A stretch of 64,000 nt of DNA from Nostocoides sp. HKS02 (GTDB taxonomy: Bacteria; Actinomycetota; Actinomycetes; Actinomycetales; Dermatophilaceae), in assembly GCF_009707485.1 (NCBI RefSeq), contig NZ_CP046121.1, forward strand, positions 2,790,001 through 2,854,000. Direction: 5' to 3'. Shown one piece after another: positions 1 to 62,340 of the stretch. The position numbers were made by a program, and so were the translations under genes. The first letter of the stretch is position 1. Each line of letters begins with the position of its first letter. The notes beneath the pieces are model-generated. The model saw only the letters and a list, made by a program, of their open reading frames with translations. It was not told the DNA's origin and ran no database searches.

Positions 1-950
1 CTGGCCCGAACGACTCGGCACGGCGCCGCAGCACCTGCTGACCGGCGTCCCGGCATACGTCGACGGTCGCATGCTGGCGATCACCCAGCAGGCCGGCGGG
101 CGCATCGTCAACCGCGACCGGATGTGGCACTACGTCGAGGGCATCGAGAACTGGGCTCCGCTGTGGCCCGGTCACGCGATCCGCATCCTGCCGGGGCCGA
201 GCTCGCTGTGGTTCGACGGCAACGGCGATCGGCTGCCCGCGCCGCTTGTTCCCGGGCTTCGACACCCTCGGCACGCTCGCCCACCTGCGTCAGACCGGCC
301 ACGACCACAGCTGGTTCATCCTCACCGCGAAGATCATCGGCAAGGAGTTCGCCCTGTCGGGCTCGGAGCAGAACCCTGATCTCACCGGCAAGTCCGTGCG
401 CGACGTGCTCGGCCGCGCCCGCGCCGACATGCCTGCGCCGGTGCGAGCCTTCCTCGACAAGGGCGCGGACTTCGTCTCTGCCGACACGCTGCCCGAGCTG
501 GTCGCCAAGATGAACGCGCTCACCCCGCACGCGCCCCTCGACCTGGCCCACCTCGAGCGCCAGATCGTCGACCGGGACCGTCAGCTCGAGAACCCGTACT
601 CCAAGGACGCCCAGGTGACGGCCCTCCGCGGCGCGCGAAACTACCGCGGTGACAAGCTGATTCGTACTGCGCGCCCGCACCGCATCCTCGACCCCGAGGC
701 CGGGCCGCTCATCGCGGTGCGGCTGCACGTGCTCACCCGCAAGACCTTGGGTGGGCTCGAGACCGACCTCTCGTCGCGGGTCCGGTCCGACTCCGGCGAG
801 CCGGTTCCCGGGCTGTATGCCGCGGGTGAGGTGGCCGGGTTCGGCGGCGGAGGGATGCACGGGTACCGCGCGCTCGAGGGCACCTTCCTGGGCGGGTGCA
901 TCTTCTCGGGGCGAGCCGCTGGGCGCGCTGCGGCGGCCGCCGTCGGCTGA
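1..950 (+). CDS. FAD-binding dehydrogenase (3-ketosteroid delta1-dehydrogenase-like), 3' part, frameshifted
   Basis: This is the carboxy-terminal part of a flavoprotein dehydrogenase; the start lies left of the window. The conserved FAD-closing segment GLYAAGEVAGFGGGGMHG followed by LEGTFLGGCIFSGRAAG near the end is typical of fumarate reductase/KstD-fold predicted oxidoreductases. The substrate cannot be read from this part. The reading frame entered at base 2 (WPERLGTAPQHLL...) changes by +1 inside GCTTGTTC at 244-251. Removing one T restores ...RLPAPLFPGFDTLGTL without any other change, so the break looks like one of the recurrent single-T insertions of this window rather than real decay. 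The enzyme would act in the cytoplasm as an FAD-dependent redox enzyme; steroid or other specificity is not claimed. Confidence 0.8.
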
Positions 951-956
951 CGACCT

Positions 957-985
957 GCAGGAACCTCAGCAGCAGAGGTTGCTGC
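957..985. terminator. Stem-loop between convergent genes
   Basis: GCAG-g-AACCTC, a 7-base loop, then GAGGTT-g-CTGC form a ten-pair stem with one internal G.G mismatch. It lies directly after the flavoprotein stop and before the convergent bpa stop, so it could serve both strands. There is no clear T-tract, which is common in high-GC actinobacteria. Confidence 0.6.
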
Positions 986-1011
986 ACGGGGAACTGCGCG
1001 CGTCGGGACGG

Positions 1012-59721: not shown

Positions 59722-59759
59722 ATGGTTCGGGGCGGCCCGTGGCAGGTATGCCGCGTGGC

Positions 59760-60758
59760 TCAGACGAGGCCGCGGCGGGCGGCCTGCACCCCCGCCTGGA
59801 ACCGGGTGCCGGCGCCCACCTGGTCCATGAGCGCGCGCACCCGACGCTCGACGGTGCGCTGCGACACCCCCGTCTGCCGGGCGATGGTCGCGTCGGTGGC
59901 CCCGGCCGCGAGCAGGCCGAGGATGGTCTGGTCGCGGCGGTCGGAGGCCGTACGACCCGCCCGGTGCAAGGGTGATCCGAGGTTCCAGAGGTGGTCGTAG
60001 AGCGCGATGAGAGCGATGACCAGCGAGCGTGACCGGACCAGCGCGGATCCGAACCCCGCCGGGTCGAAGGCGCTGACGTCCACCACCGCTGCGGTGTCGT
60101 CGACGATGACCGCCGAGAACGGCACGGCTGTGGTGAAGCGGAACCGCTCGCCGCCGCGCTCGCGCGCCTCGAGCACCCGGAGCGCCCCCTCGAGCTCGAG
60201 GACCTGGGTGTCGTAGACCGTCGTCATCGTGAGGATGGCACCGCCCGCGCCCCGGGTGGGTTCCTCGTGGCTGTGCTGGGGGCTGTCGAAGATGGCCCGG
60301 GTCCGCGGCGACAGGGACCGAAAGGTGCGGACGGACTCCTTGCCGGAGGCGATCATCTCTGCGGTCACCGGCCCGATCTCGTCGAAGGAGCCGAGGATCC
60401 GGATGGCGCCCGTGTCCGGGACGGCCGAGGCACTCCGGGCCTGGAAGTACACCTGGGCGAGCTCGTGCGCGGCCGAGCGGGCCTGGCGGGCCCGGCGTTC
60501 GAACGCCGAGGCGAGCACCGGCAGGGAGATGTCAGGCGAGATGACGTCGATCGCGCCGCCGGGGCCCAACCGGACAAGGCCCTGAGCGGCCAGCATCTCC
60601 AGGGCGCGGTCCACGACCTCGGCGTGCATCCCCTGCGCGATGAGCAGGGATCTGGATGGTTCCGGGTGCTGCACGGCGGCGAGGTAGGCGCGCGTGAGGA
60701 GGGCCTCGGTCTCGGGGTCGACGCCCTCTATGGGGAGTCGTCCCTCGGGTTCGGGCAT
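59760..60758 (-). CDS. LuxR-type regulator with N-terminal TrmB-like domain
   Basis: A 332-residue regulator. The N-terminus looks like a TrmB-type winged helix (LLTRAYLAAVQHPEPSRSLLIAQGMHAEVVDRALEMLAAQGLV). The middle is a phospholipase-D-like/TrmB sensor region. The C-terminus is a LuxR helix-turn-helix (ILGLLAAGATDATIARQTGVSQRTVERRVRALMDQVGA). This layout is common in actinobacterial orphan regulators; target and ligand are unknown. It is divergent from purD. Confidence 0.82.
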   Translation of the reverse strand: MPEPEGRLPIEGVDPETEALLTRAYLAAVQHPEPSRSLLIAQGMHAEVVDRALEMLAAQGLVRLGPGGAIDVISPDISLPVLASAFERRARQARSAAHELAQVYFQARSASAVPDTGAIRILGSFDEIGPVTAEMIASGKESVRTFRSLSPRTRAIFDSPQHSHEEPTRGAGGAILTMTTVYDTQVLELEGALRVLEARERGGERFRFTTAVPFSAVIVDDTAAVVDVSAFDPAGFGSALVRSRSLVIALIALYDHLWNLGSPLHRAGRTASDRRDQTILGLLAAGATDATIARQTGVSQRTVERRVRALMDQVGAGTRFQAGVQAARRGLV

Positions 60759-61055
60759 CTCCCGACTTCTCTCTGTGGAGCGGGTCGAACCGTCTGGGGA
60801 TCGGCGTCCGACTGGGCCCATCGTGGCGCGTTGGCGAATCCCCGTCAATGACGCACTTCCGCCACGTCGGGGCTTTACCGTGGGGGCCCTCATGGTCCAC
60901 TCTTGAGCCAGTCGACCTAGTCGACCCGCGTGCTGTGTCGCAGGTTCCCCCGCCAGGCGACCGCACGTCGGCCGCGCGGCGTCCCCGGGAGATGTCCCCC
61001 CTGCCTCCCCGGGACGCCGCGCACTCGTCTCAGCCCGAGTGAATACCCTGATCCC
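60759..61055. other. Divergent intergenic region between the LuxR-type regulator and purD
   Basis: It holds a very stable hairpin (60974-61022) and, 16 bases before purD, GAATACCCT, a possible -10-like element. No gene is supported. Confidence 0.4.
60974..61022. promoter_or_regulatory. Long GC-rich hairpin upstream of purD
   Basis: GCGCGGCGTCCC pairs perfectly with GGGACGCCGCGC. After one C.C mismatch, GGGAG pairs with CTCCC, giving about 17 pairs around a 13-base loop. It ends 33 bases before the purD GTG. It could be a terminator of leftover transcription or a leader structure. Confidence 0.6.
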
Positions 61056-62340
61056 GTGAAGATTCTCGTCGTCGGGTCAGGCGCCCGCGAGCACGCCCTC
61101 GTCAAGTCCCTCGCCGCGGATGCCCAGGTGGACGCCGTCATCGCCGCCCCGGGCAACCCGGGGATGGACGCCATCGCGCTCTGCGAGACCCTCCCGGCGG
61201 GCCCCCTCGACGGGGCCGGGATCGTCGAGCTGGCGCAGCGCCACGGCGTCGACCTCGTGGTGATCGGGCCCGAGGCCCCTCTCGTCGCGGGGGTGGCCGA
61301 CGCGGTGCGCGCGGCCGGCGTGCCGGTGTTCGGGCCCTCGGCCGCGGCCGCCCGGCTCGAGGGCAGCAAGGCCTTTGCCAAGGAGGTCATGGCAGCCGCC
61401 GACGTGCCCACCGCCATGGCCCATGTCTGCACGACCATCGAGCAGGTCGCCTCGGCCCTCGACGCGCTGGGCGCTCCGCACGTGGTCAAGGATGACGGGC
61501 TGGCCGCTGGCAAGGGGGTCGTCGTGACCGAGGACCGCGACGAGGCCCTCGAGCATGCGCGCGCCTGTCTGGCCAAGGAGGGCAGCCGCGTCGTCGTCGA
61601 GGAGTTCCTCGACGGCCCTGAGATCTCGCTTGTTCTGCGTCTGTGACGGCACGACCGTGGTGCCACTCGCTCCGGCCCAGGACTTCAAACGGGTGGGTGA
61701 CGGCGATGTCGGCCCCAACACCGGTGGCATGGGCGCGTACTCGCCGCTCGACTGGGCCCCCGCCTCGCTGGTCGACGAGCTGGTCGTGCGCGTCGCCCAG
61801 CCGACGGTCGACGAGATGCGGCGCCGGGGCACGCCGTTCGTCGGGCTCCTCTTCATCGGCCTCGCGGTCACCGCTCGGGGCCCCCGGGTCATCGAGTTCA
61901 ACGCCCGCTTCGGCGACCCCGAGACCCAGGTGGTCCTGGCCCGTCTCAAGTCGCCCCTCGGCGCGCTGCTGCTCGCCGCCGCGACCGGCACGCTCGACCA
62001 GGTGGACGCCCTGCGGTGGTCCAGCCAGCACGCGGTCACGGTGGTGGTGGCCTCGGCCAACTACCCCGGCACGCCGCGCACCGGTGACCCGATCACCGGG
62101 GTCGACGAAGCGACCGACGTGCCCACGGCATACGTGCTCCACGCGGGCACGGCCCGCGACCCCGACGGCACCCTCGTGTCGGCGGGCGGTCGCGTGCTCT
62201 CGGTGGTGGCTCTCGGCGACAGCCTCACCCAGGCACGGGAACGCGTCTACGAGGCCGTCGACCACATCGGTCTCGAGGGCGCGCACCATCGCTCGGACAT
62301 CGCCCTGGCCGCCCAACAGGACGAGCTGCACGTCGGTTAG
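61056..62340 (+). CDS. purD: Phosphoribosylamine-glycine ligase, frameshifted
   Basis: ATP-grasp enzyme for the second step of purine synthesis. It opens with MKILVVGSGAREHALV-type GTG start, has VVIGPEAPLVAG and the ATP-binding APHVVKDDGLAAGKGVVV in frame one. GDVGPNTGGMGAYSPLDW and RVIEFNARFGDPETQVVL are in frame two. The +1 shift is at GCTTGTTC (61628-61635); one T less restores GPEISLFCVCDGTTVVPLAP and a normal 427-residue enzyme. Confidence 0.96.

Follow-up and report, generated by a model that had tools for sequence, protein, structure and literature searches.

Nine copies of the octamer GCTTGTTC, which reads as GCTGTTC with one T too many, lie in the window analyzed here, a stretch of 64,000 nucleotides from Nostocoides sp. 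HKS02 (positions 2,790,001-2,854,000 of NZ_CP046121.1). The genome is a single contig of 3,482,451 bases with a G+C content of 71%. All nine copies are on the plus strand, against a chance expectation of 0.63, and none of 100 shuffled sequences held more than three. Eight of them shift the reading frame of their gene by +1, and the remaining copy is in frame within dnaK. A first-pass annotation of the window, drawn from its letters and open reading frames, had described eight plus-strand genes as frameshifted at this octamer; all eight places were found, and profiles, relatives or a codon model show the +1 shift at each.

Every break was tested with both reading frames entered as separate pieces. 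At the gene for a flavin adenine dinucleotide (FAD)-binding dehydrogenase (octamer at 244..251), profile NF009472 is matched over positions 237-317 upstream and over 319-549 in the other frame downstream. The LppX/LprAFG (LprG-like) lipoprotein gene (43640..43647) matches PF07161 from 2 to 100 in one frame and from 97 to 171 in the other, and purD (61628..61635) matches TIGR00877 from 2 to 197 and then from 200 to 423; the codon model also places a shift of 1 in both. The purA profile is covered from 1 to 281 before the octamer (55957..55964) and from 284 to 425 after it. Among the 120 PurA relatives listed, 112 match both pieces; exactly one residue separates the two in 111 of these, and it is Leu in all five printed alignments. 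The gene for an M20/allantoate amidohydrolase (12641..12648) is bridged in the same manner, as 116 of the 120 relatives listed match both pieces and all 116 have exactly one residue between. This gene carries a second frame break upstream of the octamer, near 12522-12532, beside a run of five C.

At the 3' end of dnaJ (27959..27966), the C-terminus known from relatives resumes in the other frame past the octamer. The upstream frame is matched up to its end, HDPRAE, while the other frame continues past the site as FAEARR and a stop; the codon model again indicates a shift of 1. At this place six of the nine printed relatives have Leu-Phe (e.g. HDPRAELFERARA); in two, Leu is followed by a different residue, and the match to the ninth stops short of this point. 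In a GNAT gene whose octamer (58879..58886) lies near its start, the N-terminal part read in the alternative frame matches the relatives P0122 and P0123 at 88% over 25 residues, with weaker matches to others. Both of these proteins have 260 amino acids, versus 235 in the database entry from this same contig (P0121, window 58884-59588), which starts at a TTG made by the extra T. The last site (30329..30336) lies between the two parts of a large CBM96/DNRLRE-Rhs gene, with domains on either side. Here the codon model, the sole support for the shift, takes the plus-strand reading from frame 2 into frame 0 within 30329-30484, and no profile crosses the seam. The statement that deleting one T restores homology at each site was borne out by profiles or relatives for seven genes; at the Rhs seam the codon model supports the frame change. 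The copy in dnaK (25566..25573), which the annotation had noted as in frame, is genuine: DnaK is matched at full length (1-627) across it and the codon model sees no shift. Intact GCTGTTC, also reported earlier, is present on the plus strand at 18029, 19034, 42641 and 49791 and on the minus strand at 10 sites.

Searched on both strands of the whole genome, as the annotation had suggested, GCTTGTTC occurs 128 times on the plus strand and 14 times on the minus strand (binomial p = 3e-24), and the breaks recur in plus-strand genes. The intact word shows the mirror image, GCTGTTC being depleted on the strand that gains the altered form (392 plus versus 568 minus; p = 1.5e-8). Going beyond the earlier account, we found that GCTGTT followed by G is affected as well, with GCTTGTTG at 78 plus and 33 minus copies and intact GCTGTTG at 195 and 257. 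If the minus-strand count is taken as the natural level, the extra T is estimated to occur in about 114 of 506 plus-strand copies of GCTGTTC (22%) and in 45 of 240 copies of GCTGTTG (19%). GCTTGTT was the most strand-skewed of the 5,333 7-mers tested (44 plus, 4 minus) in an unbiased 464-kb sample that comprised the window and 20 stretches of 20 kb. The 16 one-letter variants of it with at least six copies each in the sample showed no skew (z from -1.5 to 2.1), and other single edits of GCTGTTC reached a z of 2.5 at most. The affected core is therefore the hexamer GCTGTT with C or G after it, and roughly 20% of its plus-strand copies are altered.

We then asked what separates altered from intact copies, and found no longer context within 14 bases of the word (28 flanking positions). 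Two letters alone gave p < 0.01, T at -1 (0.0035) and C at +13 (0.0029), which is not significant over 112 tests, and this lack of a deciding context fits a near-even vote that settles each copy. Copies are unevenly spaced in one place, genome positions 139,792-158,089, where seven plus-strand GCTTGTTC sites fall within 18.3 kb, versus an average of about one per 27 kb; read depth may have been low in this region.

On a circular chromosome, the only strand defined all the way round is the one that the assembler happened to print. With dnaA at 2,694,443-2,695,855 and the terminus assumed at its antipode, GCTTGTTC counts are 54 plus and 8 minus on one arm and 74 plus and 6 minus on the other, in the same direction. 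Because both replichores skew alike, the skew follows the arbitrary strand of the assembler and not replication. An origin in replication, transcription or translation is excluded in the same way, since such processes would switch strand at the origin or along with gene direction. Signals oriented by replication, such as the FtsK-orienting polar sequences (KOPS), for which no search was made, were discarded as candidates because the skew keeps its direction across the origin.

Reading frames around the sites, classed by codon usage over 240 bases on each side, follow the contig strand too. The stretches contain 110 plus-strand GCTTGTTC sites, of which 25 were unclear, 4 change strand and 81 were confident; most small stretches were picked around such sites, which inflates the broken fraction among them and leaves the strand contrast unaffected. 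In plus-strand genes, 58 of 65 confident sites have a shift of 1, six have none and one has a shift of 2. In minus-strand genes, the 16 confident sites divide into seven with a shift of 1, eight with none and one with a shift of 2; such shifted minus-strand genes, found elsewhere in the genome, were not part of the earlier account. Among 82 intact plus-strand GCTGTTC sites, 48 were confident in plus-strand genes (43 in frame, one shift 1, four shift 2) and eight in minus-strand genes, all in frame. GAACAGC, the same word in the opposite orientation (85 sites), is in frame at all 44 confident sites in minus-strand genes and at 9 of 11 in plus-strand genes, the other two showing one shift of 1 and one of 2. 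The altered word in the opposite orientation, GAACAAGC, has 11 sites, of which five were unclear, two of two in minus-strand genes were in frame, and those in plus-strand genes comprised two in frame, one with shift 1 and one with shift 2. The occasional odd shifts reflect noise of the codon-usage test, or other indels.

Taken together, these data indicate that the extra T is almost certainly an error of the assembled consensus that is not present in the chromosome, which was also the reading preferred in the first-pass annotation. The error follows the contig strand round the whole chromosome, whatever the gene direction or replichore, and both the strand and the replichore tests strongly support this reading. 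The relatives' proteins continue without interruption across the tested seams. On the plus strand, GCTGTT would have been written as GCTTGTT in roughly one copy of five.

The alternative raised alongside it was programmed or tolerated +1 frameshifting, in which the peptidyl-tRNA-Leu moves from CUU onto UUG ahead of UUC and the genes remain functional. The predicted product resembles that of known programmed +1 frameshifting, and the Leu-Phe across the seam fits the purA, M20, GNAT and dnaJ relatives; moreover, all 58 shift-1 sites in plus-strand genes are in the CTG TTC phase. Intact sites share this phase, however (42 of 43 in-frame sites in plus-strand genes and 44 of 44 in minus-strand genes), and the phase is therefore a matter of codon usage. 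In minus-strand genes the same word, read in the sense of the gene, stays intact: none of its 44 confident sites there is shifted, and a ribosome cannot know the contig strand. The seven shifted minus-strand genes have the complementary word in their messenger RNA and lack the proposed slip site, which leads us to reject recoding. Unlike programmed frameshifting, the effect is set by the contig strand rather than by the gene, and the purA and M20 relatives are unbroken, so that the shift is not conserved. We regard recoding as refuted by the strand and replichore tests and give it practically no chance. Real insertions, whether in a mutator lineage, as pseudogenes or through a strand-biased defect of replication or repair, would account for frames that are truly broken in the sequence as given. 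A replication-linked bias should nevertheless switch strand at the origin, which the counts on the two arms do not do. The essential-looking purA, purD and dnaJ would also have been struck together, and the insertions would be confined to one hexamer, at about a fifth of its plus-strand copies and apparently none of those on the minus strand. We reject this explanation, too, as very improbable.

Several observations weigh against a consensus error. Altered and intact words summed are still fewer on the plus strand (520 versus 582, p = 0.07), and the control word read backwards, CTTGTTCG, is itself skewed genome-wide (69 versus 29). In the 464-kb sample, 11 of 12 plus-strand copies of CTTGTTCG lie within GCTTGTTCG, and because of this overlap CTTGTTCG is not an independent control. 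In the reverse orientation, one of the six confident GAACAAGC sites, in a plus-strand gene, shows a +1 shift and another a shift of 2. The error is, moreover, known from the assembled sequence alone. Finally, the one-sidedness needs an additional orientation-dependent step, since miscalls on one strand of the DNA should affect both contig orientations.

How a consensus error of this kind could arise can be outlined in two steps. Reads from one strand would be miscalled at GCTGTT/AACAGC, leaving the vote at about 50:50, and this split would then be resolved differently by the consensus or polishing step according to orientation. The second step is required because modification or miscalling alone would hit both contig orientations; minus-orientation GCTTGTTC stays at 14 copies, near background, and the both-orientation expectation of modification errors does not hold here.

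Within the consensus-error explanation, the miscall may have one of two origins. The base caller or polisher model might mishandle GCTGTT in one orientation with no modified base involved, and we put the chances of this at about even. An orientation-dependent program step is needed for the contig-strand specificity in any case, the unrelated indels at C or G runs point to a limited consensus quality, and only about one fifth of copies are affected, no context having been found that decides which. A general fault of such a model should recur, however, and it was seen in none of 392 other genomes or 57 relatives, two overlapping sets whose sequencing platforms may differ. In addition, the absence of skew in the 16 one-letter variants of GCTTGTT gives a sharpness typical of a recognition motif.

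The other origin, suggested in the first-pass annotation, is a base modified on one strand of a non-palindromic motif, which would provoke the miscall. This part of its account fared unevenly: the single-hexamer sharpness and the presence of a type III pair speak for it, and the sparing of one contig strand speaks against it. Strand specificity can point to modification only with an added orientation-dependent step, because a modification would mark the copies in the other orientation too, and these are spared. An intact type III Mod/Res pair is encoded at genome positions 1,994,608-1,999,741. The Mod protein (681 amino acids, DPPY motif, PF01555, type III according to PADLOC) is related to the solved Mod structures 6k0w and 4zcf, and Res (1,027 amino acids) has helicase and endonuclease domains. 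A gene for an SNF2-like helicase of 1,086 amino acids precedes the pair. The segment with Res and Mod behind the helicase (1,994,608-2,003,497; 'HKD+Snf2' in PADLOC) has a G+C content of 65%, lower than that of the genome, and is likely an acquired defense island. Of the methyltransferase families, PF01555 and PF02384 were searched in the genome, and PF02384 gave no match.

According to PMC8259958, a type III enzyme modifies a single strand of its asymmetric site of 4-6 bp, and two of the six systems described there that form N4-methylcytosine (m4C) have a helicase gene 5' of mod. The Mod found here has FAGS in place of the FGG motif given in that study, and judging by its sequence its mark could be either N6-methyladenine (m6A) or m4C. 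It is conceivable, though rather unlikely in our estimation, that this enzyme marks one strand of 5'-AACAGC-3', that GCTGTT is consequently miscalled as GCTTGTT, and that a polisher sensitive to orientation makes the error permanent on one contig strand only. The likeness to EcoP15I-type systems lies in the intact Mod and Res, and linking this Mod to AACAGC/GCTGTT is a proposal only. No match to Mod (E <= 1e-20) was present in any of the ten congeners listed, none of which has a comparable skew, and a genome with a 53% Mod relative (G027) has 13 plus and 12 minus copies of GCTTGTTC, which is no skew. This distribution appears compatible with Mod as the trigger, not decisive, and the platforms behind the genomes may differ. 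Should the proposal be true, a strand-skew test of short words would both expose false frameshifts and reveal a methylation motif without reads.

Errors that resemble these have been described for long-read assemblies. Reads split by strand at modified motifs, and the consensus flips at near-even fractions with small changes (PMC11389150, PMC11610573); PMC10687267 describes motif-bound errors in strains whose methyltransferase system is unusual. In one benchmark with default basecallers, about 70% of consensus errors lay at Dcm motifs (PMC6591954). The modification errors of native-DNA nanopore assemblies, as described in the first three sources, are like ours in that one short strain-specific motif is affected, relatives are correct and part of the copies are altered; they differ in being mainly A/G and C/T ambiguities, whereas we observe a one-base insertion in a single contig orientation. 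Indels in homopolymer length, as covered in PMC6591954, share with our case the addition of a base beside an identical one, and breaks at C or G runs are found in this genome too. Here, however, the run is a single T and the word is fixed at six bases, and the breaks at C/G runs are found at C runs as well as G runs of the contig.

In a set of 393 genomes of the class, itself included, this genome stands out: the strand ratio for GCTTGTTC is 9.1 here and does not exceed about 3.5 in any other (read by eye); the largest other splits noticed by eye were 17/5, 17/5 and 7/24. A comparable skew was likewise absent in the 57 relatives, nine of them single-contig, a set that overlaps the 392 other genomes of the class. 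Genome completeness is 96.09, compared to 98-100 in the ten congeners listed. The DnaK of the window is closest to Phycicoccus and Janibacter relatives (about 85%), and the N-terminal part of PurA has its best named match, at 98% over 63% of the query, in Pedococcus dokdonensis. The strain is therefore a soil-type actinobacterium of the Dermatophilaceae/Intrasporangiaceae, probably Pedococcus. Literature on the strain or motif was sought among top-ranked results, which contained no mention of Dermatophilaceae, Pedococcus or AACAGC; such papers may nonetheless exist.

By the estimate from the strand differences, GCTGTTC carries about 114 false insertions and GCTGTTG some 45, which would be misread as pseudogenes, split genes or even recoding; one of them has already given a database protein (P0121, the GNAT entry) a false start. 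A comparison of strand skew, in which the altered word is up and the intact word down with no change across the origin, offers a cheap test of finished genomes that requires no reads.

The assembly also contains indels of other kinds. Segmentation of the 464 kb by the codon model gave 32 internal frame switches, 28 of them of the insertion class; these counts are rough, as a simple rule based on stops and starts served to tell internal switches from gene borders. Ten of the 28 lie beside GCTTGTT, 13 beside runs of at least five C or G, and five beside neither. One insertion-class switch in the window, at 21206, is beside a run of six C (CTCCCCCCTCC) and lacks the stop/start signs of a border. 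At 16913 the codon model places a shift-2 switch inside a plus-strand coding sequence with no GCTTGTT nearby. Three other candidates for altered words, GGGGCTC (68 plus, 27 minus), GGTCTTG (70 and 31) and CTTCTTC (74 and 34), are skewed in the sample and were rejected, their confident sites being mostly in frame; codon usage together with gene direction is the simpler cause of their skew, and a few shift-1 sites remain among them. GCTGTCT is strand-skewed in the 464-kb sample as well (16 plus, 1 minus), and its confident sites are mostly in frame. Lastly, a thiamine pyrophosphate (TPP) riboswitch is located on the plus strand of the window at 15634-15736.

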